Positions 10,701 to 63,615 of a stretch of 64,000 nucleotides of DNA are shown here, piece after piece. The translations under genes were made by a program, and so were the position numbers. Position 1 is the stretch's first letter. Every line of letters starts with the position of its first letter. Source of the stretch: a virus; IMG/VR virus record IMGVR_UViG_3300030019_000570, positions 48,426-112,425 of that record; one strand, given 5' to 3'. The notes beneath the pieces are model-generated. The model was not told where the DNA came from, did not search any database, and saw only the letters and a list, made by a program, of their open reading frames with translations.

Positions 10701-11408
10701 ATGCCTAATGAATTAAACCAATTTGCAACATTCAAACCTATAGAAATAGCTAATGACTCTCGAGCACAAGAAGCTAGACAATATTATCAAGATAATGGAC
10801 TTGTTCCAGACAATCCTTTTATGACTAAATTTTTAGATCAAGCTACTACTACACAATCAATTCCTAATATCTCTACACCTAGTAAAGATACCGATATAGC
10901 TGCGTTATTAGTTAATAAATTAACTAAAGTTCCAATGTCTACTCCTGAAAAAGCATTAAATGATATTAATGTTAATGCTTCTGTTTTTACACCAAAAGTA
11001 TCTGTTTCTCAAAAAGCTAAAGAAGCAATTAAATTCTTTATGGGTAAAGGTTATACTAAAGAAGTAGCTTCTGGTATTACTGGTAATCTATATGCAGAAT
11101 CAGGTTTAAATCATATGCGACCTCAAAATAATGGCGGTCCAGGATTTGGTTTAGCTCAATGAGAAGGACCAAGACAAGCGGATTTTAAACGCATTATGGG
11201 TAAAGATGTACATTCATCTACAGCACAAGATCAATTAGAGTTTATTAATTGAGAATTAAATAATACACAAAAGCATGCAAAAGCAGCTATATTACAAGCT
11301 AAATCTCCAGCAGAAGCAGCTTATGCATTTGCTAATAAATATGAACGTATGAAGAAATATAATAAAGAACGTGAATCTTACGCTAATACTTTTTACACAA
11401 CTAAATAA
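10701..11408 (+). CDS. Phage_lysozyme2-type lysin (TGA=Trp)
   Basis: A 235-residue protein with two in-frame TGA codons read as Trp (11160-11162 and 11250-11252). Residues about 110-235 match the phage tail lysin domain (Phage_lysozyme2): a helix with ASGITGNLYAESG, then G-L-A-Q-W where the conserved Trp is TGA, then QLEFINWEL and the final YERMKKYNKERE helix. The first 100 residues are an unstructured linker. It probably cleaves peptidoglycan glycan strands during entry or lysis. It stands alone between two terminators with its own promoter, apart from the GH24 lysozyme at 61685, so the phage has two lytic enzymes here. Confidence 0.82.
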
Positions 11409-11414
11409 AACAAG

Positions 11415-11449
11415 AAAATCCCCTAGCCTTAACGGTTAGGGGATTTTTT
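11415..11449. terminator. bidirectional terminator between convergent blocks
   Basis: AAAATCCCCTAGCC (11415-11428) pairs with GGTTAGGGGATTTT (11434-11447), 14 pairs with one G-U, flanked by an A-run on the left and a T-run on the right. It therefore can end transcription of the lysin gene (plus) and of the giant late genes (minus). Confidence 0.92.
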
Positions 11450-11450
11450 T

Positions 11451-14400
11451 TTACTTTCTATCAACAGTTGGTAAGATTTCCATCATATTTCAATTACCTC
11501 TTAAAAACGTAACTAAATCAGATTTACCTGCAAGTACACTCTTAAAATCGGTCATAGTATTAGTCATAATTGAAGCAAAAGCTGGTTCTCAACTTAATGC
11601 TCCAAATACACCACCAAATGGATCAAACTCCCCAAAACTCTTCATACCTACTTTAGTAGCTAGTTGTTCGTATTGAGACATTTCTTTCATTGGTTTCATA
11701 CCATCTTCTCCTTTAGACATTAATATATGTCCTAATCAAATCATCATCATAGCGATTAATAAATCATGTAACGCAACTTTAGCATTAGCTAATCTTTGAG
11801 GATCAGTATTCTTTAAATCACCAGTAGCAAGAGCTCTAATAGTTAAACCTAATGAATACATTAAACCTTCACTAGGAGAACCAATTCAAGCATTAGCAGG
11901 AATAATAGGATCTTTAGAACCTAATTGATCTTTAGTTACTTCTTGCATTTCATAATTACCTTGTTCATCAATTACAGGTTTACCATTTTCATCAGTAGTC
12001 ATTTTTTGATAATATAGAATTTTATTTCCATTATCATCAATTGTAAACTTTTGACCCATATAACCTCTAGGAGATTTTTGATCAGGTTTACCAAAATAAT
12101 ATTTAACTTTAGATGGTCAGAATGTTAAGAATTGTCCAAAAATAATACCCATTGCAGTATGTTTAATCAAAGGTGACATATCTTGATCATAAAATCCATA
12201 AGCCATATCAGAAAAATTCTTAATACTACCACGTTCTTTAGATGTGTATGCTGATGGAATATTATCTTTTTCAGTTAAAAGTTTTTCACCAAACGAAGAA
12301 TTCTCACCATTAAACTCGTCAATTATAGTTAAATACAAACTACGTTGTTTATTGTATAATTCATCAGATGCATTATATTGATATCCATTAGCTTCGCGAT
12401 TTTTAAAATAATGAGCATATCTTTTATCTTTAGAAGGATCATATTGTAGTTGTCCTTCTGAATTTAAACTATGTGCATCATAACAACCATCATGAATCAT
12501 TTTTGCAAATAATAAGGATAGTCGATTTACATAATCTGGTGCAGTATTGAATCAATACATATTTTCACCCAAGAAGTTAAATCCGAATTTATCAACTTTC
12601 TTTCTATCAACAATGTGATTTAAATCTTGATTAGCAAAACGCATTTCTAAGTTGATAGCTTCATTTAAGGCATATGTTTCTTTATTAGGATCTAATACTA
12701 ATTTATAAGCTTTTGCAAGATGATCTCCATTAAAACTATCATCTCCATAAATTTTACTTCATGCATAAGATGTATTCTTAACTGTTCCAACAAGTAACTC
12801 TTTAATTAATAATGCAGGTCTTAATGAAATTGCCATTAAACTCGATATTTTTTGTACCTTTTTAATAACAGCTAATGCTTCTGCACCTTCTTTATCAGCT
12901 ACTAACGATTGACCATATACAGCAGTTTTCATTTGATTAAAGAAATCTTCAAGAGCTTCTGTAAGTTCTTTAGTCTTTCCTGAACTTCATCCGTGAAACT
13001 TCATTACTGTTAATGCAGAATGTATATTAGGAAGTACTGTATTAAAGTGTTTTTCTCTAATATTTTCAAAAGCATATTTTAAACCAATAACATCTAAGTT
13101 TACTTCAAAAGCATTTACTCCATATTTTTCAATTAAACTTAATCTATAATTGTCATTAGTATTTTTAAATTGATTATACATACGTTTAAATCCATTAACT
13201 GATTCATAAGATTCAACACGTTGTTCTTCTGTAATATCTCTAGGATCTAATAAACCTTTAGTATCATCTCAGAATTTACCAACAGTTTTTCTAAAACCAT
13301 CTGTAGTAATTGATTTTCATTTACTTAAACTCATTTTCTTAACAAGTGGAGCTTTAAATAAATCAGATCCAATAGATGTTCATTCACTAAAGTTTTCGTG
13401 CTTTTTAAATTCTTCTAATGTTTCAATATTGTATTTATTTATAGGACTATATTTAAACATATTGAATACTACTGTTTCTAAATAAGCTCTTTGAGGATTA
13501 TCAAGATTAGATTTAAGATCTCATGGATTTTTAAATCTAAAATCATTATCAATAACACCATTATGTTGTTCAAAGAAAACTTTGTGATATTGATCAGCAT
13601 CTCCAATAATTATTTTTTGAAGAGTAGAACGACCTATTGCTTCATAGTATTTATTAGTTGCACTTACAATTGAAGCAGATTCTTTATTAAATTCAGAAGC
13701 AATTTTGTTATGTGCAATGGTAATCATACCGTGTAAACGAGTCATAGCTTGTGATTGTAGAGCATCGGCAGTATTGAAATGTTGACCTTGAAATAAACCT
13801 ACAATCTTATTACCATTCTTATCATATTCTGGAGATGTTCCCATAACCATAGTTCTAATTCAATCAGTAGCATCACCAATTCTAATTCCATATCTAGGAG
13901 TTGCATAATCAAATGTATCATTTAAATTAGTGTAATATGATACACCTAATGATACAAGATAGTATATATAATTCAAAGGGTCTGAGAAATCTTGAATTTC
14001 AGTTTGGTCTTTATTTTGAAGACTGTTTCCATATTTATCAAGAAGTTCATTTCTAAACTTTAAAAACCATTGTAATTTATCATTAGCTGTAGACATTTCT
14101 TCATCATCTTGACGATATGAAGCAATTGTTGTTTTTAACGCAGAATTATCAATATTACCAGCTTTAGATAAAATTTCACCTCATATGGTTTTCATCATAT
14201 CAGATGCTTTTAAATTTCCTGTTTTAAAATTGTTTTTAAAATCAGATTTAACTTTTACAATTTCATCACCTAATAAATTAAAATTATGAATAGCTTTATC
14301 AATTGGAATAAAATCCGCTTTATCACTGAATCAGTTATATACAGATACATTATTAATTGTTGAACCTTTTAAGTTATCAGTTAAAGCATTTAATACTGTC

Positions 14401-16121
14401 AAAGCTTTCATTATTTCAATATTAGCTGTACTTGCTGTAAGTATTCTACTATCATTAGCTAATGATTTATTAGGTTTAAATTTACCTAAAATAGTATTAC
14501 CTCTAGTAAATTCATTAACTTGATCTAAAGCATTAATAGTAATTGCAATAGCTTCTACACTTCGAGTATTAATGTTTCTAAATAATAATACACCAGCATG
14601 AGATAATTCAGGAATTGAATTTTCATCATTTACTATTTCCCATTCAGGTGTTAAATATTTATTAAGTACTCTTTGCATTTGAATTGGAGCTTCCTTACCA
14701 TTAATAAGAATTCCATGTTCTTTATTTTTAGCAGCTTTAAATGACTTAACAAGGTCATTCATTTTACTATCTTTAGCATTAGTCCATTTTGTTACATAAT
14801 CTTCAACTTTAGCTTGAAATCTTTCTTCCCAACCTAGTTTAGTTTTATCTTCTTCAATCCTTTCAGTATTTAAATTATTTACAATATAAATCTTAGCTTG
14901 ACCTTCTGAACGAGCAATAGCCTCTTTAACTAAATTTTCAACAGATTTACCTTTTGTTTTAGTTTTATAATCATAAGCAGGAAATGCAATCTTACAAGTA
15001 TCAACAATTTCAGAATCTAAATCAGTAGTAGATAAATGATCCCTTTTGATTTTAGAAGGAATAAGAGTTCTTAAATCATTACTCATATTACCTGAATTAT
15101 ATTCTAATCCTGATGATGAATTTGATCTGTCTGAAATTTCTTCTAATGTAATAGCGTTAGGATTTATTTCAATATTATTACCTTTTTTAGGAACAATTAA
15201 TTGTAGTATATTTAAAGAAGATTGAGCTGTATCAACATAACTATCTAACAACTGACGTTTTATTCCTAAAATATAATCAGTTTCTAATTTCTTAGATGAA
15301 TCCCAATCAGAATATTTATTTCTTGAAACTTTAATTTCATATAAATTAGGAATTCCTTTATCATCAATTTCTAATACATGAATATTTCCATTCATATGAT
15401 TAGCAGTACTGTTTACAGATTGACCTATTTTAATAATACTATTAGACGATTGCATTTTTCTACCTCAAACAATTAAATCATTTTTAAGTGTAGCAATCGC
15501 TATTTTGTAATTGTCTAAATTAAATTCTTTTTTCTCAAAGTTAGACGTTCCATCTAATTTATCAAATTCTTTAGATGCAAATTGATTATAATTATGAATC
15601 TCTTTCATAAGATTCTCTAAATACATATCAATATCTTTATCCTTATATAATTTACCAGCATCAGATAAAGCCAATCTTACAAGATTAGAACCAATTTTAC
15701 TCATTTCCATCATTCTATTATCAAGAGATAAATTTAAATTAACTCTTGCCATTAGAACAGCAGCAGATTCATTAGGATATTTAACTTTTAATAAAGCTAA
15801 TTGATTCTTTTTAAAATTTGCTTCAATAAATTCGGGGGAGAGTAATTTCTCTTCCCCGTTTATATTATGTGTAAGTTTTATAAAACTATAAGGTGTTAAT
15901 CCATCAGATACTTTAGGATCGATATTTGATTTTGCTGTATTATCTTCTAACACATTTAAAGTTAAGTCTTGTAAAGATTGGGTTAGTGTATCTTCAGATC
16001 TACTGTGTTTTACACCCACTTCTTTATCCAGATTGTTCTTAACAAAATCTGTTAGTTCTTTATCCGAATTAAAAGTTGCATTAAATCCGTCTATATTTAA
16101 ATAGTATTTACATTTATCCAT
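11451..16121 (-). CDS. giant virion-type protein with PD-(D/E)XK-like nuclease motif (1556 aa, TGA=Trp)
   Basis: One frame runs from the ATG at 16119-16121 to the TAA at 11451-11453 once the in-frame TGA codons (for example at 15465, 13860 and 12117) are read as Trp. Around residues 250-300 a strand ending in D253, then Y-E-I-K (E262 and K264), then a helix with RQLL matches the layout of a PD-(D/E)XK nuclease. The rest is helix-rich with no recognised domain, and a hydrophobic helix (AMMMIWLGHIL) lies near the C-terminus. It is the last gene of the giant-gene run, ten bases after the 1022-residue gene. In crAss-like phages, genes in this position encode proteins packaged in the virion. The nuclease call is motif-based; virion location is inferred from context. 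Confidence 0.7.
15833..15858 (-). other. intragenic 5'-proximal hairpin
   Basis: CGGGGGAGAG (15833-15842) pairs with CTCTTCCCCG (15849-15858) around a 6-base loop, ten pairs with one G-T. It lies inside the coding sequence, 263 bases after the start codon, in otherwise AT-rich sequence. No T-run follows in the direction of transcription. Confidence 0.7.
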
Positions 16122-16132: not shown

Positions 16133-19100
16133 TTAATAACTGCAATCTTGTATCAGTTGATCATTTTTTATTAATTGTTTTATCTTTCCTGATACATTAA
16201 ACATTTCAAATGCGTTTGTAGTATCAATTAATCCATCTTCTGCACCTATTAATTTAGAACCAAACTGAGTCATTATACTATCAATTGGTTGACCTAATAA
16301 ATCTATTGAATCTTCTCATTTTAAATCAGCATCTAAATTTAATAAATCAGATATTGATTTTTTAATAGATTCATTAAATACTTTCTCAGTAAATAATTCA
16401 TCAGGTTTAATATTGCTTTTAACTGTCATTGTTAATAATTTAACAAAAGTTTCCTCTAATTTATCAGCATTTATATCTCCATTATAACTCTTAGATATTT
16501 CTGAAAACATAGGATGATATTGTACTGAATTCACAATTCTATAATAAGAATCAGAATCATTACTTTTCATTGTAGCTAATACTAAATGTAGAATCTCGTG
16601 TAATGGTTCTTCCATTCCAGCTTTATCAACATTTACATAAACTCCACCTTCATAAACAAATGCCGCAGAATTATTTACATCTAAATGTGTAAAGTCTTTT
16701 AAATCATCATTTGTAATAATATTGATCGGAACTCCGAATTTATTTTGAAGAACATCAATCATAGCGTTAACTATTTCAACTGAATCAGATTTACTGTAAG
16801 CAGTAACATATGAACTCTTAGAAGGATTACTTTGAGTAACAACATCTTTAACTTTTTCAAAATTATCGGTTGCTCATTTTGGTAAAAACAATTGTTTTAT
16901 ATTAGTAGCATCTACTCCAATAAAAAATCGTTCTGCTTTAACATGATTTATTTTACTATCGTCTCCAACATTAGGAATATTTGAATAATGATATGCAGAA
17001 ACTAATAGTTTATCTCCAATCATTTTCTCAACAATAAAAGGTTTAGCGTTTCCTTCTACAAGTAAATAAGAACCTGGAACTATATATTGAAATACTTTAT
17101 CAAAACTTGTATTATCCAATGCAATTTTTACTGTATTAAAATCATCTTTTAATATACCTTTTTGTCCATTAATAGGATTACCTTCATACATATAAAGTTT
17201 ATCGGGAATTGAATTTCATTTATAGCGTTCAGCTAAAGACTCTTTATATTTCTGTGTAATATCTATATCAGATGATTCGTATTTAGATTCAGATATAGGT
17301 CTACTATAAACATAACCTGTTTTACTTTGATAAACTTTAACTTCTTGACTATTAGTATTAGTTATATTAGGAGTGTTTCCAAGTTTAAATCTGTTTTTAA
17401 TTATTCAACCTTGAGCAAAAGATTCATTTTGTGATTTATTACTCAATAATAAATATCTTGATAAATTTAAATCTGATGTAGCTACATCAATATAACGATT
17501 AACTCCTCCAAACTCAGATGATGTTTTAATATGATCATAAGCTGATTCAAGTACTTTTAATACATTACCAGTTGAAGTATCATATATAAAATCATCTTTA
17601 TTAATTGTAGATTGACTATTAATTTGCTCTATAGAAAATTCTGAATTTTTAAAAGCTCCATGATTATTTTTCTTTGGACTAAGAAATATTTCTTGCATGT
17701 TATCTAATATCTTACCATTTGAATCTGTTTTAAACACATCACTAATTGATTGTTTAACACTAACCTTTTCAGTAGCTGATATAACATGATCAATACTTGG
17801 AGAAGTTACATATTTAATACTATTTTCCATAACATATTTTACAGTATTGTTCTTAGTTAAATAATATACAATTTTCTTATCTCCTGCATCAGATTGACTA
17901 GTACCATGAGCTAATACAATAGCATCAACAAGTTTATCATCTTCTTTAACAAGAACGTGTGCACCATTCATTACTCCAAATTGTACAGGTTGTCAAGCAT
18001 CATTATTTTCAATTTCTGAAATCGTATGACTTTTAAATGTATTTGTATCAACATCTGTTCCGATTGAAAAGTTTTTAATATCACTTACTGGAACTTGTTC
18101 TCCATTAACAGTTAACATAGAACCATTTATTTCAGAAATTTCTCTATACGTTTTACTTCTTCCAACTTTTACTTTAACTCTACCAGATTTAATTAAATCA
18201 AGCATAGTACCTCACTTAACTTTACTAAATTTATTTATAGATAATTCAGATTCAGTTTTACTTGATTTGTATACAGGTTTAATTGTAGTATCATCAACTT
18301 TTCTAGAATATATATAATCTGATTTAAGTAATGATTTACGTGTTGTTAATCCATCCCCACCTGAAATTGTAGTAATAACTTTATTACCATCAGTATCTAC
18401 TTTATAATCAAAAAAGATTTCATAAATAGTTTTATCTCCAAATTTAACTCCAATTAAATCACCTTGTCTAAGATTTTTAATTAGAGTTTTTTCAGCAGGT
18501 TGATAATAATAATCACGATTTTCTTTTAATACTTTAGTTTCAAAGTTAGATTTTATAGTGTAAGCTGAATCTCTTGTATTTATTAAATCTGATACACCGT
18601 TAACATCTATAGTATTTTTATAAGATGCTTCATTATAAACAAATAATAATTTACTAAGTAATTTAGATTTATCTCCAAATCCTGGATTAATTATATTATT
18701 TAATATCTCAGTTCTTTGTGCATCAGTACCAGTTCTAAGAGTTTCAGAGTTTTTAATGTAATTATCATTATCGTATAAATTTAATGCCAACTCAGTTAAA
18801 GCCATTATCTTATTTTGTTCATCATAAGCATAATTTAGATTTAAAAATATATGACCTTTATGAAATTGAGTTTTTACGTTTTCATTTGCAATTCCAGCAA
18901 TAACCATTTTAGAGGTCCATGATGGTTTAGGAATATTAAGTCCTTGCATTAATTTAATTACATTCTTATCTTTAATCAACTCCGCAGGGCTGTAAAGCCC
19001 CACGGAATTTTCATTAATGTTTGTAAGTTCAATATTCTCAATTGAATCAAATTGTGGAAGCATTTCCATAATTGATTTAAGTTCATCCAAACTTCTACCT

Positions 19101-19201
19101 GATAATAATTTTTTAATTTCATTAATATCAGTAACAGGTTTTTCAACTGAACCTAAATTATATTTCTTACCTCCAACGTTAAGTATTATTTCACAACTCA
19201 T
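16133..19201 (-). CDS. large virion-type protein with C-terminal zincin (HExxH) motif (1022 aa, TGA=Trp)
   Basis: The frame runs from the ATG at 19199-19201 to the TAA at 16133-16135, reading TGA at 18212, 17993, 17405, 17216, 16874 and 16316 as Trp. At residues 868-872 the sequence HEILH, preceded by EPL and followed by a hydrophobic helix and then by LEETFVKLLT about 40 residues on, has the form of a zinc metalloprotease active site (HExxH plus a downstream Glu). The N-terminal 300 residues are mixed strand and helix without a known domain. The start codon overlaps the RNA polymerase stop by one base (TAATG), so the two are translationally coupled. A packaged protease or peptidoglycan-acting enzyme is possible; the substrate is unknown. 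Confidence 0.7.
18981..19006 (-). other. intragenic 5'-proximal hairpin
   Basis: TCCG and GGGCT (18981-18991) pair with AGCCC and CGGA (18996-19006) across a 2x2 internal loop, with a 4-base terminal loop. It lies inside coding sequence, 195 bases after the start codon. Confidence 0.65.
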
Positions 19202-22200
19202 TATTTATTACATTTAGTTTCTAATACACCATTTATAGATGTTAGACTATTTAAAATTTGTTTTTCTAAATTCTTTCTTTCCTCACTAGCAATTTCAGAT
19301 TCATCTAAAGAGTCTAATAAAGTATAATATCTATTCTTAACAGAATCAACAATATCAACTGGATTTTCAATATCAGACATATCTTGAGATCTAGCTACAG
19401 ATTTTTGTTCTAAATCTCTCTTTCCAAATATCTGTAAATATAATACATGTCTAAAATCTTTATCAGTTTTAATTCTATCCATTAATTTTGGGATTAGATT
19501 TTTATCTAAGTCCATCATCCTTTGGAATTCTACGAATTTTCTTGAGAAAGTGTTAGGATTTTCCATATCTTGTGAGAAAAATATAGTTGCTCTATTTCCA
19601 CCAAATCGTCCTTCGTTGACTAAATGATTATACAAATATAGTAAATCTAAAGCTCTAATATTCTCAGAATTGTACTTATTTGATCCAGGATCAGTCTGAG
19701 ATACTTTGATATTTAAATTATATTTATCATCACGATTTTCATTAAATAAATTGAGACCATGTTGAATCTTAGTCATTATTTTATGATTTGATTTATCATC
19801 ATAGAATTTAATCTGACGTTGCATATTGAATATTTTATTGTTTCCAAACTTATAATCTTTTAAGAAGTTATTACTCTTAAATTTAGATTTAAGTGAATTA
19901 ATTAAATAATTCTCCATAATATATTTGTATTGTGCTAATCCAAATTCAGTTCCAAGATCAATAATTCTATAAGGAGTATTTAAAGATTCTTCTTTAGTAT
20001 CAGGATCTGTACTTAATTTAATTTCAGAAGTACTAATCCTTTGTTTATCAGGATCGAGTATATTCATCTCTTTTATATTTAAGTATTTCATGATTTGAAC
20101 AATGTCTAATTGTAAATTTAAATTTTTAAGCCATTCTTGTGATACATAATTATCATAAGCATCACCTGCTCCAGATAGTACTTTTTCTCTAAGTTGTACA
20201 GAATTATCGATATTTGACATTGCTCTTGTTTGTTTAACAATATCTTTATGGTCTAATTCACCATTATCTCTACCTATATCAACTAAAGCATGAGTAAAAT
20301 CAGTAACGAAAGCATATTTATTAATATCAGTTCTCATTGTTTTTTCACTATAATTAAATGATTTCAACATTCCATTAAAGTGAGGTAACTTATTTACAAC
20401 ATCTAATACATTGAATGTATATTTCAATAAATTATAATAACCTGTAACAGCTTCAAAATATCTTGGTTCTGTTGTAATAGGATGATCCATACTTTCGTAA
20501 TAACGATTGATATCAACTCCACCAAATACAATTCCAGCTAATACAGCATCAGATAATCTTCCTTTAATATAACCTTCTGATAAATGAGGTTTGTCAGTTT
20601 TAATTATTCTAACTAACTCAGGTAATAAAGTTTTATTAAATTCTTTAAGTATTAAAGTTTGTTCAGATGAAGATGCTTCATTTCATTGTTTTTTAACATT
20701 ATTTAAATCCGTTTTAACTTCTTCAAATATTGTATTTTGTTGAGATGTAACAACTGAATTAATTTTTCTAACAATATTATATATATCAATTTCAGAAGCT
20801 TTAATACCTTGATTAGCAGATAGTAATCCACCCAAAGTTTTAAGTTCTTTAGAATAGTTATAAATTTTAATAAACTCATCAAAATAAGCTTTATTAATTC
20901 CAGCTTTAGCAGGATTAAGTTTTCCTAATTGTGCATCAATTGATGAACTTTTACCAGATTTAAAGAAGTCTTCTTGTAAAGCAGCTTTAATTTTTAACGC
21001 ATCATCACTAGTCATAAATTTACCAATAAGTGCTTCATCCATTCCTAATACTAACATATAAATATGCATTGAAGCAAAATCTATACCAGCATTAATTTTA
21101 GCTAACATTAACTCTTTAGCATTATCAGTTGCAAGAGATAATAAAGCAGATATATTTAAAGCCGGATCATTTTCATCAAGAACTTTAGATAACTCTAATT
21201 TCTCTTCATCGTTAAATAAAGATCCATCTTTCTTAGTTAGATTAACTTCTTTAAGATTTTTATATACAATATCTTCTAAAGTTTTAGTTGCTTTTTCTGT
21301 TAAGTTTAATCCTCCAATCTTTTTAAGATTGTAGTTCTTACCTAAAATATGAAAGTTTCTACTAAAGAATTCATTATCTTCTGATGTTACTTCACCATTA
21401 TAATAATTAGAATAATATGTAACTAAAGCAAAATAATCTTTAAGTCCTGTAGCAGCAGCTCCAATTACTTTTTTACCTACAGCATTTTGTTCTTGTTGTA
21501 AGAATGTTGTATGACCATCATAATTACTTAAAGCATAAGAACCATCAATTTTCTTACCAATTTCTGTATACTTACCAAATGAGATTGGAGAATAAGATGC
21601 AACTTGATTTCTAGGACTAGTACTTAATGCAATTAACTTATTAACTACAAAGTTTTTAAATCCATTTTCATTATTGTATTTATTATGTTTAGATAATTGT
21701 TTAATAAATTTATCAGCAATTAAATCATTTTCACTATCAATATATTTAATTTCAGGATGATCTTTCAAATAGTTATAAATATCAGCTCTTTCTTTTAATC
21801 TAAATGGATTCATGGTTGTAGGAATAACAAATGTTTCGCCTTCAAACTTTCCTCTAGTATATTCCTTTCCATTAGGTGCAGGAAGTCTTAAAGAATCTCT
21901 AACGTTATCATCAGATGAGAAATCAAAGAATGGTGATCATTTTTCAAAAGAACCATTTCTATAATCATACATCATCATATAAACTTTATCAATATCAAAG
22001 TCAGAACCTTGTAACCATAATTGTCAGTGAGATACAAATGCATTATTCAAGTGTTCTTGAGTATATGCTACAGTATTCATAGACATAAATGATTGATAAG
22101 CTTGTGCAGGAATACGAGCACTTAATGATAGATTAGACATTTTCCATGAATTAAACATAGTATTTTTCAAGTTAAACACATAACTGTCTTTAGCTCTACT

Positions 22201-54840: not shown

Positions 54841-55923
54841 TTAAGCGATTACTGTAATTGTGATTGTACCAGTTGCACCAGTAGCATCAGTAGCAGTAAT
54901 TACTGTAGTTCCAGCAGCTACACCAGTAACTACACCAGTTCCAGCTACAACAGTAGCAGTAGCAGTAGTTCCAGAAGCGAATGTTACAGCTCCTAATGCT
55001 CCAACAGGAGTAATAGTAGTAGTATCACCTACGACGATTAAGTTATCATTAGTAGTTAATTGGAATGCACCAGCACCAGGACTAGAAGCTAAAATAGATA
55101 AACCAGTATTAGTAATTGCAGTTTCAAATGTTGTTACATTAGCAGCAGGTACATAGAATACATGAGTTGTGATTGAATTACCTTCTGCGAGGATTCCATC
55201 AGCACTATCTTTTTGGATTTTGTAACGAAGTGTATATTGAGAATAGTTTCCACCAATGATTGGTCTTTCTTCTTTGTTTGTACCAAAGAAACGAGTGTTT
55301 TCATAAGTAGGGAACATAATTGATCTTACCATGAAATCGTCATCTCCAAAACCAACAAGACCAGCAGTTGTAACTGTACCTGTAGCTTTTACTGTATATT
55401 CAGGTTGAATAATTGAGTTAGAGTTTAAAGTTAATGCAACTTCTTCAGTTTGTTTAATTGAGAAAAATCTTTGGTTATTATCAGTAGCGGTTAATGTAAT
55501 AATACCAGAACCACCAGAAGTAGCAGTGATATAAGAGAAACCGAATCTATCTTTAAGTCCGTTAATTTGAGCAATAAGAGCAGTTGCGTCAGTAGCAGCT
55601 ACACCTGATGAAAGTACTTCAACTACAACCGGTTTTTTGAAATACAAATAAGTATTTGCATATTCAGAATTGGTTTGTTGAGATAATCTTACATCTACTT
55701 CTAATCTATTTACTAGCCCACTTGTTGAAGCGGCGATTGTAATTGAAGCTACTTCTTTAACACCAGCACTATAAGCTTTTTTATAAACGCTTACGATACC
55801 TGCTTTCTTGAAGAAATTTACTCTAGTTACATTCAGACCTTGGGCAGTTCCAGCATATTTAGCTGTAGAACCATTTGAATCTAATTGAGAATTTAAAATT
55901 GTTGTTGTTGTAAATTGATACAT
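54841..55923 (-). CDS. capsid decoration-type protein with C-terminal Ig-like domain (360 aa)
   Basis: A 360-residue beta-rich protein containing no Trp. The last 75 residues (VGDTTTITPVGALGAVTFASG... to TGTITITVIA) are a Big_2-type bacterial Ig-like domain, common on phage capsid and tail surface proteins. The first 230 residues resemble a head auxiliary protein, with strands of DDDFMVRSIMFPT type. It is bounded by a strong terminator and short leader, which suggests abundant expression. Its codon usage is less AT-rich than that of the cargo genes. Auxiliary capsid or head-fibre protein is the likeliest role. Confidence 0.7.
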   Translation of the reverse strand: MYQFTTTTILNSQLDSNGSTAKYAGTAQGLNVTRVNFFKKAGIVSVYKKAYSAGVKEVASITIAASTSGLVNRLEVDVRLSQQTNSEYANTYLYFKKPVVVEVLSSGVAATDATALIAQINGLKDRFGFSYITATSGGSGIITLTATDNNQRFFSIKQTEEVALTLNSNSIIQPEYTVKATGTVTTAGLVGFGDDDFMVRSIMFPTYENTRFFGTNKEERPIIGGNYSQYTLRYKIQKDSADGILAEGNSITTHVFYVPAANVTTFETAITNTGLSILASSPGAGAFQLTTNDNLIVVGDTTTITPVGALGAVTFASGTTATATVVAGTGVVTGVAAGTTVITATDATGATGTITITVIA

Positions 55924-55952
55924 TTTTTATAGTTTATATCATTTAAAAATAT

Positions 55953-57140
55953 TTATCTATGTCTTTGTTGTTGTTCTTGTTGTGGACCAGCTACTGATGT
56001 ATTAACAGGAATATGTGATTGTAATCTAGGATCACTAGCATTTTCCATTAATATATTAGTTAGTTCATTTATAATTTCTTGAACAACGTAATCTGGGAAT
56101 TCTAATATTTGAGATGTATCTTCTACTGCATCTACCTGTTCTTGTGTAAGTCTGATAAATTGTGGAGATTTTAAATAATCTACATATATTCTTGTTGGTT
56201 GAAAAATCTTATCATCTTTTCCAAATCTTAACTCCATTCTAGTTGCATCTCTATTACCGTAGCGAATATCTTCTTCTCTAGTTATTAAAGATCTTTCAAC
56301 ACTTTCATAAGTTAAAGTACCTGATGTATTAGATTTAGATACTACAAATGTATCATACATTGATTTAATTGTTAATATATTAGTATTAACATCTAAAAAG
56401 TAGTATGCTCTTTGTATTTTAGGATCTGAACTTACAGATAATTTAGAATATAAATTTGCAAGAGTTCCATTATTAGTAGTATTTATTAATACTTCTAAAG
56501 GATTTGATATAGATGGTGAAGTTTTTAAAGTATATGTAATTCCATTTACTATAATTGTATCTCCATCTACTTCAGTTCCATCTAAATCTAATGTATAAAT
56601 ATTAAAATTAGTTCCCGATAAGATTGTTTTAGAATCTTCTGTTGGGAATGTATTTATTGTATTTACGTTATGAATATAAAAATAAGGATTAGAATATGAA
56701 GGTCTTTGATAATAGTTATTAATTATTTGTGACCACATATCTCCAGTTAGACGTTTTGCACCCATTTGTAAATATGAATTAGCATTGTAACATTTAAAAG
56801 ATTTTAATACTTTATATTCTACAATACAATTCAAAATATGTACGTAATCTGGTGGTAAATCTACTTCATAAGTCGCTTGAAATAAAGGACTTGGTGAAGT
56901 AGGTGAGGTATAACCAGGGTATACCGTTTGTAATTTTGGTTCTAAAACAGCAGTACTTTTTAACACTCTCAAATCGTCAGTTTTCTGTTGATTCATGTCA
57001 TAAGCGTTATACATTTTATTAACGTATTGCAAAATTGCTTTATTAATAAAATAGTTATAATCTTCCAACAATAAACTTGGAGCATTGACTTTATTTAATT
57101 CTGTTAGAGCTGCTTCAAATAGTTGGCTAGCTGTGATAAT
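55953..57140 (-). CDS. head-completion protein, start codon unclear
   Basis: The TAA stop is at 55953-55955. From a TTG at 57069 the frame gives 372 residues, but it stays open to a TAA at 57150-57152 and the extra residues (ITASQLFEAALTELNKVNAPSLLLEDYNYF) look like genuine, conserved coding sequence. No ATG or GTG exists in that stretch; I use an ATT at 57138-57140 only as a placeholder (about 395 aa). A GIY-YIG gene lies immediately upstream in the same frame, so insertion of the mobile gene probably removed the original start. The body is mixed alpha/beta with a helical LTNILMENASD segment and a Gln-rich tail (QQEQQQRHR), fitting a head-tail adaptor-type protein. Confidence 0.6.
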   Translation of the reverse strand: MITASQLFEAALTELNKVNAPSLLLEDYNYFINKAILQYVNKMYNAYDMNQQKTDDLRVLKSTAVLEPKLQTVYPGYTSPTSPSPLFQATYEVDLPPDYVHILNCIVEYKVLKSFKCYNANSYLQMGAKRLTGDMWSQIINNYYQRPSYSNPYFYIHNVNTINTFPTEDSKTILSGTNFNIYTLDLDGTEVDGDTIIVNGITYTLKTSPSISNPLEVLINTTNNGTLANLYSKLSVSSDPKIQRAYYFLDVNTNILTIKSMYDTFVVSKSNTSGTLTYESVERSLITREEDIRYGNRDATRMELRFGKDDKIFQPTRIYVDYLKSPQFIRLTQEQVDAVEDTSQILEFPDYVVQEIINELTNILMENASDPRLQSHIPVNTSVAGPQQEQQQRHR

Positions 57141-57161
57141 TGTATAGTTTTAATAATTTAA

Positions 57162-58055
57162 TTATATTATCTTATTTGGAGGATTATCTGATCTGGTTCA
57201 TAAAAATCCATTACACGATCTTTTTAATTTTATAGCAGAACTAATACTAGCTAATTTTAAATCTAGTTTATTTTTAGCTTGAATAATAGTATCAAAACTA
57301 TCAATATATATTCCATCTAAAGAATATCTATTTAATTTTTCTGATTTTTTATTAACTATTATTTGTAATTTATCATATTTTTCAGTACTTATAAAGTATC
57401 CTGAAATTTTATAATTTGCTCTAATAGCTCTATTAAGATTTCCAGAATTTGTATCTAAAAATAATATAGCATCTGACATTTTTTCAAATTCTTCTACTAA
57501 AAATCCATCAACATCATAAATATAATATTTATTAGGATTATGTAGATTATATTCTGAAATATTTATTAGATTATTATAACTCCATAAAAACCCATTACAA
57601 GTTCTTTTTTCATTAATTGCTCCATATATATTAGATATATCTCTTTCTATAATTTTACTAGCTTCTATAGCAGATTCATATGATTTTAATAAATTTCCGT
57701 TAAAATCAAATTGATAAACAAAATTATATGGTCTAGGTCTTCCTTTTCCACCTAATGATGTATTGTATGTTTTATCACTATTTATAAATTCTTCAGTAAC
57801 TAATTCTGATTCTTTTATATACGCATCTTCTTCTTTTTCAAATACATATAAAATATCTCTTTTAAAATTTGATATTCCATGTTTTATTATTGCAAAATGA
57901 AAAGGACGAATAGGATAATTCAAATAATGTGTATTGTTTAAATTAAATCCATTTCCTAAATATCCATCAAAAATATCAGGATTTTCAGTTTTATGTACTC
58001 CAATATAAATTTTATTGTTAATTAAACAAGTAGTTTTGTAAACAATGTATTTCAT
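57162..58055 (-). CDS. GIY-YIG homing endonuclease with three NUMOD1-like repeats (297 aa, TGA=Trp)
   Basis: The frame runs from the ATG at 58053-58055 to the TAA at 57162-57164, reading TGA at 57198 as Trp. The nuclease core is MKYIVYKTTCLINNKIYIGVH and the following helix (to about residue 95). Repeats of about 45 residues follow, each with a strand of type YQFDFNGNLLKSY, a helix, and in two cases the ending CNGFLW. The first CNGFLW uses TGG (57582-57584) and the second uses TGA (57198-57200), direct internal evidence for TGA=Trp. It sits between the 304-residue head protein and the start-less head-completion gene. Confidence 0.9.
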
Positions 58056-58078
58056 ATATAATTATATTATGGTTAATA

Positions 58079-58993
58079 TTATTTTTTAGATGTTGGTCCT
58101 TTTTTGACAGTAACTGTTTCAACAGGTTCTTCATAATAAGGAATATCTTTAGTGATATCTTCTTGAGCAACGTCAATTTCACGTTTAGTCATTAACTCAG
58201 GATAAGTTTCACGTTTAATAGAATCTAATAGTTTTTTGAATCTAATATCTCTTAGGAATGTTATTGTTGATTCTAATGAACCTCCAAGCATTTTATCATC
58301 GTATTTATATATTCCGTCTGAACGTCTAATTACTCCACGATCAACTGCATCGAGAATAAACAAATGCATTTTCCAATCTTCTCCTTCGTATAATTCAATT
58401 ATCCTTTTTGGAGTTTTCTCAGCGATTTCAACTAGATAATCTAGTATATCAGCAGGGATTGCATTTCCTAAATTGCGTCCTAACACTCTACATTTTTTGA
58501 TTCTTTCCGATTCTGAATCTTCATAGATATAACTTAAAGCTCTATAAACAAATTGTTTTTTGTCCATTTTAACTTTAGTAAGTTCTCCTGGTCTTTCAAC
58601 ATATAAATCAGCAATGCCATATTTACGAGCACCACCATCTACAATTAAATTACCATCTGAATCTCTTTGGAATCTATCTTTTGCAATCCAGTTACAATAT
58701 TCAATAGCTTCTCATTTAGCTTTATCTATTACATCATCTAAGTCAAATGAAGTTCCGTCCACTATTTCAAATACGTGATCGGCTGCAATATAATGGGCTT
58801 CACCATTACTCATTTTAGTAATATCATCTTCTGACAAAACCATTTCGGTAGCACCTTTATTGGCATCACCTCTGACTAATCTAACACAATCGGGGTATCT
58901 TCCTGTACGTGGATTTGGACAGGGTTGTATAAAGTACGTTTGATTAACTTTTCCATAAGCACTTCTAAGAATTATTTCATTATTCATATTCAT
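58079..58993 (-). CDS. conserved crAss-type head protein (304 aa, TGA=Trp)
   Basis: One frame from the ATG at 58991-58993 to the TAA at 58079-58081; the single TGA at 58712 joins what would otherwise be two genes. The N-terminal 90 residues form a beta domain (YFIQPCPNPRTGRYPDCVRLV...). The middle contains the join AKWEAIEYCNWIAK, where the first Trp is TGA and the second TGG, and the C-terminus is helical and ends in a Lys-rich tail. It directly follows the MCP gene and its terminator. It is probably a head-associated or capsid-completion protein; no enzymatic motif is seen. Confidence 0.65.
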
Positions 58994-59043
58994 ATTTTTT
59001 TGTATTTTTTAATTTTCATCTACTTGTAAAATATCTAAAATTA

Positions 59044-59064
59044 GGGGAAGGTTAATCCTTCCCC
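59044..59064 (-). terminator. intrinsic terminator after the major capsid gene
   Basis: GGGGAAGG (59044-59051) pairs perfectly with CCTTCCCC (59057-59064) around a 5-base loop. A short TAATTTT tract follows on the minus strand and a longer T-run on the plus strand. It lies 12 bases after the MCP stop. Confidence 0.8.
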
Positions 59065-59075
59065 ATTTTTTATTA

Positions 59076-60506
59076 CTAAACTTCTTCAATAATGAATGAT
59101 TTATAAGGAGCGAATGCTGCAATACCAGAGTATCCTGCAACGATCAATTTAGATCCTGCGATTGGAGAACTAACGATACCACTAGTGATACCATCTACAC
59201 CACCAACACCTGGATATTTAGATGTTACAAATTCTGCACCTTCTAATGTAAATGCTGCGATAGCTGGTTGATTTGTTGAAACGTCAGGTGACATATCAAG
59301 ACAAATACCGTATCCTTTTCTATCATATTCTTTAGTAAGAGCACGATCAACCATGAATGTTACCATATTACCGGCAATTTCATAAGAAGTGAAAGTTCCA
59401 CCAACTTTGATAGGATTATCAGCTTTAACCATTGATTGAGCTGCTTTAGAATACATCATTGTTGGAGTTGATCCCCACAATTTCAACCAGTCTCCTAAAG
59501 TAGAGTTAATTTGACCCCAAAGTCTATCATTAACAATAAATGTGTAACTGTTACCAATTGCATTTGCTGCTTTTTGATTCATTTGATCAATTACTGTATT
59601 GATGATGTTTACATTCAATTTAGCATATTTATACTTAGATGCAAATCTTTCGATTTGAGGAATAAGACCATCACCCGCGATAAGTGGACGACCATCTTCT
59701 GTAAGTACAGTAGATTTACCATTAACATCCATAGTTGTTTTTCCCCATAGTAAGTGGTTATTTTTAACTGTTTGGAAGTTTTCAAACAAATCTTTTTCCA
59801 TTTTGTTTAACTTAAAGATCTTTTCTTTCAAGTCTCCAGCTCCATCTCCTGATGCAATTTTGATAAATTGATCTTCCATTTGAGCATAACGAGAAGAGTA
59901 AGAAATGTCATTTCTATGTTCTGTGATCCATTGACGATGTTTTTCAATGTTTGATTGATACTTAGTATAACCTTCTTCATGGTACTCAGGCATAATATTA
60001 GATAAGAAACGAGTTGTTCCACCTACTTGACATGCTGAAGCATCAAGAATTGAAGAGAAATCTGCATCAATTAATTGAACCGTATATTCCCAGAATACAT
60101 CTGCTTTTCTTTGTGGGGTTGCTTTAACAATACATTGCTGACGCGATCCGTCAATTTTGAATGTATCATATTTTTCATAATATCTTTCTTTGAAATACAT
60201 TATGATATCTGCACCACCTGCACCAGTACCCGTTGGTGCTGCTGCGAATTCAACTCTTTTTACGAATTCTACATCAATTTCCCATTCTACCATTAAGGTA
60301 TTAAGTGGTTGAAATTTATTAGCTGTTTTAGAGTTGTAATAAATGTTCATTAAGGCTTCTGTTAAGAAAGTCGCTGTATTATGTGTATACATGCGAGCCA
60401 TAACTCCCATCATTTTAGGACGAGTTCCTAAAAGTTTGTAGAAATCCTCATAGGTTCTACTGTGTGCCAATTCTGGCTTTACGTTAACGTAACTTGCTAC
60501 TACCAT
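59076..60506 (-). CDS. major capsid protein
   Basis: A 476-residue protein with the length and sequence character of the crAss-like major capsid protein (HK97 fold): an N-terminal arm with SRTYEDFYKLLGTRPKMMGVMARMYTHNTATFLTEAL, an E-loop region with Glu/Lys/Tyr-rich helices (about 85-160), a peripheral domain with the YEKYDTF and RQWITEH segments, and a Gly/Ser-rich C-terminal A-domain. It forms the icosahedral head shell. Every Trp is TGG; no TGA is used, unlike most late genes. It follows the scaffold-like gene by 14 bases and is followed by a terminator, which fits very high expression. Confidence 0.9.
   Translation of the reverse strand: MVVASYVNVKPELAHSRTYEDFYKLLGTRPKMMGVMARMYTHNTATFLTEALMNIYYNSKTANKFQPLNTLMVEWEIDVEFVKRVEFAAAPTGTGAGGADIIMYFKERYYEKYDTFKIDGSRQQCIVKATPQRKADVFWEYTVQLIDADFSSILDASACQVGGTTRFLSNIMPEYHEEGYTKYQSNIEKHRQWITEHRNDISYSSRYAQMEDQFIKIASGDGAGDLKEKIFKLNKMEKDLFENFQTVKNNHLLWGKTTMDVNGKSTVLTEDGRPLIAGDGLIPQIERFASKYKYAKLNVNIINTVIDQMNQKAANAIGNSYTFIVNDRLWGQINSTLGDWLKLWGSTPTMMYSKAAQSMVKADNPIKVGGTFTSYEIAGNMVTFMVDRALTKEYDRKGYGICLDMSPDVSTNQPAIAAFTLEGAEFVTSKYPGVGGVDGITSGIVSSPIAGSKLIVAGYSGIAAFAPYKSFIIEEV
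60413..60433 (-). other. intragenic 5'-proximal hairpin in capsid gene
   Basis: TTTTAGGA (60413-60420) pairs perfectly with TCCTAAAA (60426-60433) around a 5-base loop, 73 bases after the MCP start codon. Confidence 0.6.
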
Positions 60507-60520
60507 TGTAATCTAATTTT

Positions 60521-61519
60521 TTAAAAATTTAAGTCGTAAATGCTATTTTGTGTTTTGCCGGAAGGATTATTCCTAATAACGGCGGGTTTTGGTTTTATCT
60601 GTGATTTAAGTTTTGCTATCTCCGACTCATATGCATTCTTCAATGCATCGAATGAATCTTTTCCGTAACGTGAAAACCAAGCAAGTTCATATAATTTTTT
60701 TGGATCATTTAAACTTTTATAAAACTCACTGGTTCCATTTTCGTCTAAATCCAAAATCTGTGAAAGTACTTCATTTTTTTCATCATCATCTAACTCTATT
60801 CCGTAGAATTCTGGCGTTTGCAATGCCACATTAACCATAGTTTCAGAAAATTGGTTAAATTGTTCTTCTCTTTCGGTTTCAGCTTCTTGCTTTTGAGCTT
60901 CGTTATATTGATCTTCTAGTTGTTTATATTCTGTTCTAAGCACACCTACTTTTTTAGTAAATAATGCCTCATCTTGTAATTCTTTTTCTAATTCTCTAGC
61001 TAATTCTTCTTCGGTTAAATCATACTTTTGTTTTAAGTCTAATAAGAATAATTCTTGATCATCGTAAGAATCAATACTATATTCAGATGCAGCTCCTTGT
61101 GTAAATTCTTTAATTACTGAAGTTTTATATGCTTCAAGGAATTCTTCAACTGTTAAATTTTCACCTCTAATTTGATTAATAAGTTCAATTTCTTCATCAT
61201 CTAAATCGTGATCTACAGGTTCTTGTTCTGGATCAGCAGCTTTTAAAATTTCTAATTGTTCTTCTTCTGTCAAATCATAGAAATCAATTTCTTGTTCATT
61301 ATCGTTTTCATCCAAAACACTAATTTTAGAATTTTCAATTCCAAGTGTTTTAAGATATTTATTTAAAATAAACTCTTCGGTATCAGGTCCTTCGCTTTTT
61401 TCTGCAAAAAAGTCATCGACATCATCTCCAGGAATATCTAATTGTATTTCGGGTTCGTGTTGGGGGTTATCGGGCAAAAGATCGCCTTCAAAAAGTTCAT
61501 CAAATTCATCCATATTCAT
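60521..61519 (-). CDS. acidic scaffold-like protein upstream of the capsid gene
   Basis: A 332-residue, strongly acidic, helix- and coiled-coil-rich protein (many EE/DD and Leu heptads between residues 90 and 250) with a basic C-terminal tail (KSQIKPKPAVIRNN). It lies directly upstream of the MCP gene. That position and make-up are typical of phage scaffolding proteins, whose basic tail contacts the capsid protein. Its Trp codon is TGG. The promoter at 61604-61611 probably drives it and the MCP gene. The scaffold call is an inference. Confidence 0.65.
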   Translation of the reverse strand: MNMDEFDELFEGDLLPDNPQHEPEIQLDIPGDDVDDFFAEKSEGPDTEEFILNKYLKTLGIENSKISVLDENDNEQEIDFYDLTEEEQLEILKAADPEQEPVDHDLDDEEIELINQIRGENLTVEEFLEAYKTSVIKEFTQGAASEYSIDSYDDQELFLLDLKQKYDLTEEELARELEKELQDEALFTKKVGVLRTEYKQLEDQYNEAQKQEAETEREEQFNQFSETMVNVALQTPEFYGIELDDDEKNEVLSQILDLDENGTSEFYKSLNDPKKLYELAWFSRYGKDSFDALKNAYESEIAKLKSQIKPKPAVIRNNPSGKTQNSIYDLNF

Positions 61520-61611: not shown

Positions 61612-61672
61612 CCACCTTTATCAACAATAAAATATATAAACTATAAACTTTATTGAAAATAATTGTGGTAAC
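61608..61672. promoter_or_regulatory. inverted repeat GTTACCAC/GTGGTAAC over the late promoter
   Basis: GTTACCAC (61608-61615) and GTGGTAAC (61665-61672) are perfect inverse copies 49 bases apart. The left arm overlaps the -7 element, the usual geometry for a repressor or activator operator pair. A long-loop RNA stem is the alternative. Confidence 0.5.
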
Positions 61673-61684
61673 TATTAAGATGCA

Positions 61685-62200
61685 CTAATTGAAGAATTTA
61701 ACTTCGCCAGTATTAAATAACATAGCTTCAGACTGACGTCTAAAACTTAATCCTTTTAGAACTTTACCTCCAGCTTTATTTCACATCATGAATGCATGTT
61801 CAATATTAGCAGGAGTATCTTTTGCAATAATCCTTTTTAAAAGTGTACTCTTTGCAAGAGATCCAAATCCTACATTATATGAAAATGAAATTAAAGCTTC
61901 ATATTGATTCTGAGTTAAATCTAACTTCAATTTATCAATTTGTTTAGCAAATAGTTCCAAATCAACCTTTAACATTTTAGTAGCATCTTCAATAGTATTA
62001 AGTTTATGATAACTATATGCTTTTTCTTTATTTTCAGCACCTCTAATCATTTTACCATCTCTATCTAATATAACTTTTCCATAACCTTCAGTTCAGATTC
62101 CAATAGGATCCATTTTAGGTTGAAGTCCAATATGAGAGAGATCTCCGTCATGGAGACTCTCATAATGGGATACTAATTTAATCAGTTTGTCTGTAATCAT
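61685..62200 (-). CDS. GH24 (T4-type) lysozyme (171 aa, TGA=Trp)
   Basis: Cleaves the glycan backbone of peptidoglycan at lysis. The frame runs from the ATG at 62198-62200 to the TAG at 61685-61687. Both Trp residues are encoded by TGA (62093-62095 and 61781-61783); the standard code would hide the catalytic half. The catalytic triad is E14 (YESLHDG), D31 (KMDPIG) and T37 (IWTEGYG). NQYEALISFSYNVG and FRRQSEAMLF complete the family pattern. There is no signal peptide, so export needs a holin or entry as a virion protein; no holin is seen nearby. The TAG stop confirms that TAG is not recoded. Confidence 0.9.
62131..62164 (-). other. intragenic 5'-proximal hairpin in lysozyme gene
   Basis: TATGAGAG and TCTCC pair with GGAGA and CTCTCATA (13 pairs, a 3-base bulge and a 5-base loop), 36 bases after the start codon. 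Confidence 0.7.
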
Positions 62201-62201
62201 T

Positions 62202-62486
62202 TTATTTATTTAATTCAGAGAATATTGTATCAACATCTATTACAATTGTACTTCTAATTAATACTTCTGTATTTGAAGTAAAATTAAAATTAAAATTTAT
62301 ATTATTTTCAATTCCAGGATTATTCGATACATTAAAATTTCCTTTATTAACACCTTCTATATTAGCAGAGCCATTAAAAGATATTATTTTACTTTCTTTA
62401 ATTGAATAATTGAAAGTATAATCTACATTTCCAATTGTTACTTTAGCTTCAACACTAGTTGATTCATTTGTTTTTGTAATTTCCAT
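62202..62486 (-). CDS. small beta-rich protein (94 aa)
   Basis: A 94-residue protein made almost entirely of beta-strand-like sequence with many Asn, Ser and Ile, and no Trp. It lies two bases before the lysozyme gene and 25 bases after the FISUMP fibre gene. Composition suggests an extracellular virion component, perhaps a fibre accessory protein. No domain is recognised. Confidence 0.65.
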   Translation of the reverse strand: MEITKTNESTSVEAKVTIGNVDYTFNYSIKESKIISFNGSANIEGVNKGNFNVSNNPGIENNINFNFNFTSNTEVLIRSTIVIDVDTIFSELNK

Positions 62487-62511
62487 AATTTTATTTTATT
62501 AATTTTTTATT

Positions 62512-63615
62512 TTATAATCCACCTTTAGCATAATGATATGTTCCACTATTTGTAGGAGATACTGAAAGTAATGTTAATCCAGTAAAATAACCTCCGATTA
62601 TAGTACTAGTTGATTGAGATTGTCCTGATGATATTGTTAAATTAGCTCCTGATACATTAAATGATCTTCCTGCAGCAGCATCATAATAACTATAATTAAA
62701 TGTTATAGTAACATTTGTATTTACAACAACTGCACTCGGTGATCCTGCATATACTGAATACGCATACATTTTTCAATTTGTACCATCATATAAATAATCT
62801 ACATATATTTCAACATATGTATCATTAATTACATAATTATCTGCATAAGCTCAAGCATCATTATTATTGTAACTACAACAAGCTCCACTAGTTAAAGTAG
62901 ATCATGTAGTATTATCAGTTACTATTGAAATATCATTTCCATTTCTATATTTAGTACCTCTTAAATTTGATGCCATTCATACTTGATTACCAATTTTTAC
63001 TGTCTTATAAGTATAACCACTATTATCAGTCATTATACCTGAATTAGTAGAATCATCTTTGATTAATCTAACTGAAGCACCTGTTGCAGATCCACCACCT
63101 TCTAAACTAACTCATTCAGAATCATAATGCATATCCATCATAGTTGAAGTAGATAAATATAATCCAGTCTGTTTTATATATGCAAAATTTCCAGTATTAT
63201 ATCTAAATCCTCCGCCGACAGCAGCAAATTGATATATATCTGTAGCATTAGTATTTGGAGTTAACCAATGAGTTGTATTTGCTTCTTTCAATTTTCCACC
63301 ACCTGTAGTTGTTCCTCCAATAGTTGAAACTAAAGTTTCTAATTCTGTTAAAGTTGGAACATGTCATCCACTTGGAGATATATTTCTAGAATCTAATACA
63401 GCATATGAATTATATAATCTACCATAACCACCATTAGGTAGTATGTGTTGATAGTTTCTAAAATTATATAAACTGTTTTTACTACCTACGTAGTTACTAT
63501 CAAATGCACCAATAGCAGCGGAGAATAACTCAGTTAAACTCCTATTACTACTATCAGCATATATTTCAGTAACTACATCTCTTTGATTAAAATGATCATT
63601 ATCTGGAACTGACAT
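62512..63615 (-). CDS. FISUMP-domain fibre protein, permuted (367 aa, TGA=Trp)
   Basis: The frame runs from the ATG at 63613-63615 to the TAA at 62512-62514; TGA=Trp at 63364, 63112, 62977, 62902, 62851 and 62773. After a short N-terminal tail-attachment segment comes YGRLYNSYAV and GWHVPTLTELE, then GGKLKE and VGGGFRY (the usual second half of the Fibrobacter-type major paralogous domain). TYKTVKIGNQVWMASNLRGTKYRNGNDI, normally the first half, comes after it. The C-terminal 80 residues are Ser/Thr-rich strands. FISUMP domains are common on Bacteroidota surface proteins and phage fibres, so a receptor-contacting role is likely. Conserved Trp positions are TGA-encoded. It overlaps the upstream fibre gene by 17 bases. 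Confidence 0.82.

Follow-up and report, generated by a model that had tools for sequence, protein, structure and literature searches.

We analysed a 64,000-nt window of the IMG/VR virus record IMGVR_UViG_3300030019_000570 (G000; 112,425 bp, classed as linear), a phage that reads TGA as tryptophan in most of its late genes; positions are given in window numbering unless a contig is named. Judged by its capsid gene and by the portal and terminase genes of the contig that contains the record, the window comes from a crAss-like phage. We consider it very probable that this phage, with a genome of about 176 kb, translates UGA as tryptophan in most late genes using a UCA tRNA of its own against the release factor 2 (RF2) of its host, while its early genes and its capsid gene keep TGG. 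Within this account we infer the charging of the tRNA with tryptophan by the host tryptophanyl-tRNA synthetase (TrpRS), the competition with RF2, the time course, the role of dosage behind the capsid exception, and the genome size.

Read with the standard code, the right-hand side of the window breaks up into fragments; translation table 4 joins them into colinear frames. Of the 28 late genes so obtained, 27 lie on the minus strand (63615 to 11451) and one, a tail lysozyme, on the plus strand (10701-11408); none has an inner TAA or TAG, and all terminate with TAA or TAG. In-frame TGA is present in 21 of them and absent from 7, with totals of 98 TGA and 57 TGG, divided (TGA/TGG) into 90/45 in 19 non-head genes, 1/11 in five capsid-side genes, 5/1 in three endonuclease-like genes and 2/0 in the lysozyme. 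Frame 0 of the late non-head genes holds 90 TGA and no TAA or TAG, against 176 and 992 TGA and 1018 and 1665 TAA plus TAG in the two other frames, and the late region contains 23 stop-to-stop table-4 frames of at least 200 codons, where 50 Markov-1 simulations produced none. The early block has 0 TGA and 44 TGG over 18 counted genes (Fisher p 3e-17 against the late non-head genes), a count that leaves out the endonuclease-like gene at 1705-2595 and the frame at 10285-10566. An earlier note on this DNA, made from the letters alone, had proposed long colinear genes joined across in-frame TGA, a tryptophan reading with a block-wise pattern, and a homing endonuclease as the single early exception. 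The first two proposals are borne out by these counts and by the residues in relatives described below, and the third is correct for tryptophan-coding TGA (1705-2595, one in-frame TGA).

Alignment with relatives identifies the amino acid. Every one of the 26 capsid-related loci has TGA in its aligned genes, though in a few it occurs just once. After excluding 8 near-identical or duplicate loci, we compared sites across the remaining 18, where the aligned position of a window TGA is a tryptophan codon in 159 of 210 cases (114 TGA, 45 TGG) and every non-tryptophan residue accounts for at most 12 of 210; for comparison, window TGG sites align to tryptophan in 178 of 210. MT835470, a standard-code gut phage and the one standard-code relative examined for this, has TGG at 8 of 16 ungapped window-TGA sites, and its aligned stretches contain 0 TGA, 37 TGG and no stop codon; its homologues do not match the fragments as separate genes. 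MT835492, a TAG-coded relative with 61 in-frame TAG codons in aligned genes, has TGG at 7 of 13 window-TGA sites.

The features of the window are as follows, with counts given as TGA/TGG.

17-10566, plus strand: early block in the standard code (18 counted genes, 0/44)
1705-2595, plus strand: homing-endonuclease-like gene within the early block, one in-frame TGA (GIY-YIG and NUMOD3 above cut-off, Pfam)
7203-7919, plus strand: early gene terminated by TGA, with the next gene starting inside it at 7916
10701-11408, plus strand: tail lysozyme, 2/0 (Phage_lysozyme2, Pfam 110 bits)
11451-16121, minus strand: late gene of 1556 amino acids (aa), 16/5, no PHROG match
16133-19201, minus strand: late gene of 1022 aa, 6/1
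19201-28155, minus strand: giant late gene of 2984 aa, 12/11, no PHROG match
28163-36610, minus strand: giant late gene of 2815 aa, 7/11, no sequence match in the PDB
36619-38472, minus strand: late gene of 617 aa, 5/1
38472-42380, minus strand: late gene of 1302 aa, 4/7
43551-44198, minus strand: HNH endonuclease gene, 2/0 (Pfam)
45414-49673, minus strand: virion structural protein, 11/5 (phrog_15100)
50344-54778, minus strand: five genes (50344, 51453, 52384, 53403, 54107), 18/3 summed, of which 51453 is a GIY-YIG endonuclease
54841-61519, minus strand: capsid-side module of five genes (54841, 55953, 58079, 59076, 60521), 1/11
57162-58055, minus strand: endonuclease-like gene (NUMOD1) within the capsid-side module
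59076-60506, minus strand: major capsid protein, 0/7 (Crass_capsid PF23898, 48 bits against a cut-off of 27)
61685-62200, minus strand: lysozyme-like gene with the motif IWTEGYG, 2/0 (named GH24 in the earlier note)
62512-63615, minus strand: FISUMP (Fib_succ_major) protein, 6/1 (Pfam)

Within the capsid-side module, named matches exist only for the capsid gene and, weakly, for 54841. At the DNA level, window pieces 1-25000 (in a near search) and 29207-36130 (in a distant search) had no match among 50,697 phage records.

The late genes do not use TGA uniformly. The capsid side departs from the late non-head genes (1/11 against 90/45, Fisher p 1e-4, with a grouping chosen after the counts were seen), and the same division appears in relatives, where a test of ten genes gives 24 TGA and 177 TGG on the capsid side against 156 and 43 in five other late genes, these cells being sequence counts and not independent events. 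The capsid gene alone contributes 8 TGA and 97 TGG in relatives. Four further genes were counted but not used in this test: g57162 (10/15), g61685 (5/3), g62512 (11/1) and g51453 (3/1). A second boundary is visible in two relatives, G002 and G003, whose late-strand genes from the strand switch to the terminase have 1/22 and 3/27 TGA/TGG (hand sums); the terminase large subunit (TerL) and portal genes have 14/3 and 13/8 (Fisher p 2e-10 against the pre-terminase genes, both relatives combined). In these two phages TGA use therefore begins at the terminase and not at the strand switch. The claim of the earlier note that late genes use TGA is incomplete: it misses the seven late genes of the window that lack TGA, the capsid side, which is nearly all TGG, and the mostly TGG genes ahead of the terminase in G002 and G003.

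Some early genes use TGA as a stop. TGA closes 12 of 105 mechanically called early open reading frames (ORFs). Three of the 12 are fragments of longer ORFs that contain TGA; the other 9 look like true stops, and 5 of the 9 overlap the following start through an ATGA pattern. One of the TGA-stopped genes is a formyltransferase whose last domain finishes ahead of the TGA.

The probable decoder lies outside the 112-kb record, in which ARAGORN finds 24 tRNA genes covering all 20 amino acids and no UCA anticodon. A suppressor tRNA beyond the window had been one of two mechanisms proposed in the earlier note, and a candidate is present in the containing contig G001 (IMGVR_UViG_3300031521_001337, 213,486 bp): a 74-nt tRNA with anticodon UCA at G001:30014-30087 on the minus (late) strand, near the start of that strand and ahead of the terminase, portal, tail and giant genes. 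Its anticodon loop CUUCAAA, pair A1-U72 and G73 look Trp-like by eye, and the identical sequence occurs in G020, a contig from another sample. The record and the contig match at both ends of the record, over 9,418 bases at 99.99% and 1,008 bases at 100%, exactly 112,425 bases apart (G001:70583-183007). Between these ends the comparison covers two things that agree, the protein sequences of the capsid region (L030; 100% identity across 4,665 aa) and the spacing of the tRNA genes.

G002 and G003 each carry a UCA tRNA next to a homologue of the gene that lies upstream of it in G001 (G001-G002 E 2e-20; G001-G003 E 2e-6, a weak match; G002-G003 E 8e-13). The gene downstream of the tRNA is common to G001 and G003 (61% identity) and absent at the locus in G002. 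The tRNA of G003 has 74 nt; that of G002 is longer (96 nt), has a long variable arm and is similar to the one in a siphophage, L180. That the position is kept while the type of tRNA changes suggests selection for having a UCA reader there, and the phage-borne UCA tRNA is very likely the decoder of TGA. Searches of G000-G003, records that may be incomplete, found neither a release factor domain (PF00472) nor a TrpRS-type synthetase (PF00579), with positive controls recovered in both cases. The suggestions that RF2 might be lost or that a variant RF1 or RF2 might be found in the phage accordingly gained no support: the likely host has RF2 (prfB 452 bits, cut-off 370), and no release factor domain appeared in the four phage records.

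Other tRNA genes of these phages are also unusual. The tRNA-Trp(CCA) of the phage (L023:12460-12541) has 82 nt and a long variable arm. Two Leu-like tRNA genes with odd anticodon arms lie at L023:12374-12455 and 12280-12369; one of them can fold C(UUCG)G where the anticodon loop would be and should thus not decode. In the relative G002 a tRNA with anticodon CUA (L060:5197-5271) is present in addition to the UCA one.

Assignment to the crAss-like phages draws on several genes. Crass_capsid is matched by the window's capsid protein and by all 11 aligned capsid relatives (E-values of 1 or better, best 2.4e-14); the G001 portal matches crAss001 gp20 (7qog, E 2.6e-17) and crAss-like portals at about 21% identity; TerL belongs to phrog_6681, and the early strand carries a DNA polymerase and a helicase. 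The capsid protein had no sequence match in the PDB, and its AlphaFold model was of no use (mean predicted local distance difference test score 38), so the identity came from Pfam instead. We did not use a ribonucleotide reductase label for G001:26818-29082, where the match was below cut-off.

The genome size follows from a 1,948-bp tail-fibre segment, common to the crAss-like phage and a siphophage, that occurs three times in G001 (6236-8183, 182881-184828 and 211541-213486), identical but for one base. A further contig, L028, joins both crAss arms across this segment, and three contig ends fall at it. Taken together, the repeats and L028 point to a crAss-like genome of about 176.6 kb (G001:6236-182881), close in size to contigs of relatives (178 and 172 kb). 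The crAss left arm is joined to the siphophage in contigs from three samples (G001, G020 and L272), and in G001 the right arm is as well. We did not accept the siphophage as a true co-integrate in the crAss-like genome, since L028 joins the crAss arms and the contigs conflict at the fibre block; no contig examined joins the two siphophage arms. At G001:1438-1592, between host hisB and siphophage sequence, lies a 155-bp, 98.7% identical copy of the divergent intergenic region of the crAss-like phage (34327-34481), which may be an assembly joint or real. The phage also carries a transfer-messenger RNA gene (G001:68160-68566, L057; Rfam RF00023, 107 bits), two RAGATH-1 hammerhead ribozymes near the early-strand start (L055:17201-17278 and 19692-19760, plus strand) and a GroEL-type chaperonin gene (L055:2081-3529, minus strand; Cpn60_TCP1).

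Paludibacter is the likely host. The first 1,348 bp of G001 hold the end of hisB; across this length they match Paludibacter sp. LaCa_MAG_3 at 96.9% identity (99% for the protein). The joint is not clean, as siphophage sequence begins only at G001:1592, after the 155-bp crAss-like copy. A firmer link is a related siphophage prophage directly behind hisB inside a 432-kb contig of LaCa_MAG_3. This prophage names the host of the siphophage; for the crAss-like phage, the same host would follow only through the shared fibre segment. Besides RF2, LaCa_MAG_3 encodes another protein with an RF-1 domain (362 aa, presumably RF1) and one tRNA-Trp, with anticodon CCA.

On the reading we prefer, the UCA tRNA would be transcribed from the late strand close to its start and charged with tryptophan by the host TrpRS. 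Because no phage release factor was found, it would have to compete with host RF2. Genes translated before the tRNA accumulates could not afford UGA, which would apply to the early strand and, in G002 and G003, to most late genes ahead of the terminase as well. The capsid protein, as the most abundant product, could not afford a loss at each UGA and would keep TGG, whereas genes whose products are needed late and less abundantly, such as those for tail, giant and lysis proteins, would have drifted to TGA. A cost per UGA, and hence dosage, would account for the capsid exception, for which a switch based on timing alone gives no reason; dosage fits no less well than timing.

Several observations weigh against this reading. 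In G001 itself the late-strand genes before the terminase have 14 TGA and 30 TGG (endonuclease 18203 excluded), and the contrast with TerL and portal (12/5, hand sums; p 0.009) forms a looser pattern than in G002 and G003. Nor is TGA in G001 restricted to genes that follow the UCA tRNA: an acetyltransferase-like ORF of 123 aa on its upstream side has 5 TGA and 0 TGG, and the gene adjoining this tRNA has 1 TGA and 5 TGG. The capsid-side gene 55953 has 6 TGA and 7 TGG in relatives. Comparison of the UCA tRNAs with their nearest tRNAs gives mixed isotypes, and the G001 assembly is not clean. A single in-frame TAA occurs inside an aligned stretch in 5 of 26 capsid-related loci. Back-up stops behind the early TGA stops show no clear enrichment (p 0.33, 9 TGA-ended ORFs of at least 80 aa); this test depends on the choice of ORFs, with p 0.05 without two endonuclease pieces and p 0.012 after also removing a stop 31 codons away.

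The block pattern could instead be a product of history or neutral drift, the late modules having been recoded for longer and the early modules swapped with standard-code phages. Standard, TAG and TGA codes do coexist among relatives whose capsid proteins are about 50% alike, and the mixed pre-terminase genes of G001 are what such a history might leave. It does not readily account for a capsid side that stays mostly TGG across relatives within one late strand that elsewhere favours TGA, or for pre-terminase genes on that strand that stay TGG in both G002 and G003. We regard this explanation as possible but rather unlikely.

Decoding might also be done by the tRNA-Trp(CCA) of the phage or the host, with RF2 weakened through some phage factor, and not by the UCA tRNA. 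The odd form of the phage's copy would fit, as would the existence of TGA-coded siphophages without a convincing UCA tRNA. Published surveys point the same way: a Sup-TCA tRNA is reported in 11 of 73 table-4 phages (PMC11210395), and a matching suppressor in 35% of TGA-recoded genomes (PMC10136315). The presence of a UCA tRNA in the same place in G001, G002 and G003, despite its differing type in G002, points to selection for carrying such a tRNA and makes this alternative improbable.

If the host itself read UGA as tryptophan, the phage would simply share its code, and another phage family linked to this host, unrelated to the crAss-like phages, is indeed TGA-coded. LaCa_MAG_3, however, has RF2, its one tRNA-Trp is of the CCA type, and no UCA anticodon was seen among 46 tRNAs (150 of 315 candidates scored; no Asn or Ile tRNA appeared either, so the absence is no proof). 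A loose UCA-tRNA pattern matched in 19 of 48 host-genus genomes and its reversed control in 10; of 20 loci extracted, the 8 run through ARAGORN gave no tRNA, and a match in G036, broken by a contig end, looks by eye like a tRNA-Sec. The early genes of the phage, moreover, avoid TGA as a sense codon and some terminate in it. A shared host code is thus highly improbable. That the TGA codons are true stops in split or decaying genes, an idea for which we found no supporting point, is practically refuted by joined frames free of TAA and TAG, by TGA/TGG exchange with relatives and by the stop-free aligned stretches of MT835470.

The siphophage in G001 (G001:182881-211540; L058, L059), a temperate phage of about 28.7 kb as delimited here, has an HK97-type TerL, portal, protease, capsid, tape measure and serine integrase. 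Over 18 counted genes it has 35 TGA and 28 TGG, the integrase having 0 and 4. Among 41 TerL-related loci, 24 (including G001) are TGA-coded, 16 are without TGA, and one, L176, has in-frame TAG. Standard-code relatives have TGG at many TGA sites (for example, 9 of 16 in L158). L176 carries 23 in-frame TAG codons in aligned genes and its own CUA tRNA upstream of TerL. The Paludibacter prophage (G014:C3 ~386468-422158; L235-L237) shares 91% identity in TerL and has TGA in structural and replication genes; its integrase has 1 TGA and 5 TGG, and ARAGORN finds no tRNA in it.

Among the siphophages, L180 has a UCA tRNA of the long type, and L150 and L154 have degenerate UCA tRNAs that ARAGORN missed. 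In the G001 siphophage and the host prophage, ARAGORN, lowered thresholds near TerL and relaxed scans gave no convincing suppressor tRNA. The first relaxed scan recovered four UCA control tRNAs but missed those of L150 and L154; a looser scan found both, and in the siphophage and prophage returned only candidates whose anticodon stems form 0 to 2 of 5 pairs. A suppressor may have gone undetected, leaky reading of UGA may be enough, or the decoder may come from a helper, for instance the crAss-like phage. The two phages probably meet in one cell, given the near-identical fibre segment in both. A form of code hitch-hiking, in which the lytic genes of the prophage stay locked in a standard-code host until the crAss-like phage brings its UCA tRNA, is a bold and rather improbable reading; if it were true, the genetic code of one phage would decide the entry of another into the lytic cycle. 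We did not find dependence of one recoded phage on another described among open-licence PMC papers, judged by title and start of abstract.

TGA recoding of this kind is already known in gut phages (Yutin 2021, PMC7886860), where standard, TAG and TGA codes occur within the Zeta group of crAss-like phages. The phage studied here resembles opal-recoded Zeta-group phages (PMC7886860; Lera, PMC12386605) in its Crassvirales genes, many tRNAs and mostly late TGA-to-Trp recoding, a likeness of gene and code features that does not imply Zeta membership. It shares a UCA tRNA with Lera, and its genome size falls inside the 145-192 kb reported for one family. It differs in its likely host, as Paludibacter is not named in the consulted descriptions of those phages (PMC7886860, PMC12386605), in the placing of its UCA tRNA, which sits on the late strand at a distance from the tRNA array, and in a capsid side that is largely exempt. 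Crass-like phages that read TAG as Gln (code 15, PMC9523058) also reassign a stop, with another codon and another amino acid. Some TGA-recoded phages are described with their own RF1 and TrpRS (PMC10746230), unlike G000-G003, where neither domain was matched. Many cultured table-4 phages in the Sup-TCA survey are viruses of Mycoplasma or Spiroplasma (PMC11210395). Recoded prophages in standard-code bacteria (Borges 2022, as reported in PMC10746230 and PMC10136315) are paralleled by the TGA-coded siphophage prophage in a host with RF2, except that here neither the siphophage nor, within the limits of our search, the host has a convincing suppressor. Two questions are left open in the review PMC10136315: by what means recoded phages that lack a suppressor decode, and whether recoding serves to time expression. 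A search of open-licence PMC papers found none on a Paludibacter phage and a stop codon.

The kind of code change is thus known; what this system adds is that its parts, its likely host and its TGA-avoiding genes are visible together. The phage and its suppressor locus can be compared, within one system, with a likely host that has RF2 and with classes of genes that keep or shed TGA, and the capsid exception offers a way to tell timing from dosage experimentally.

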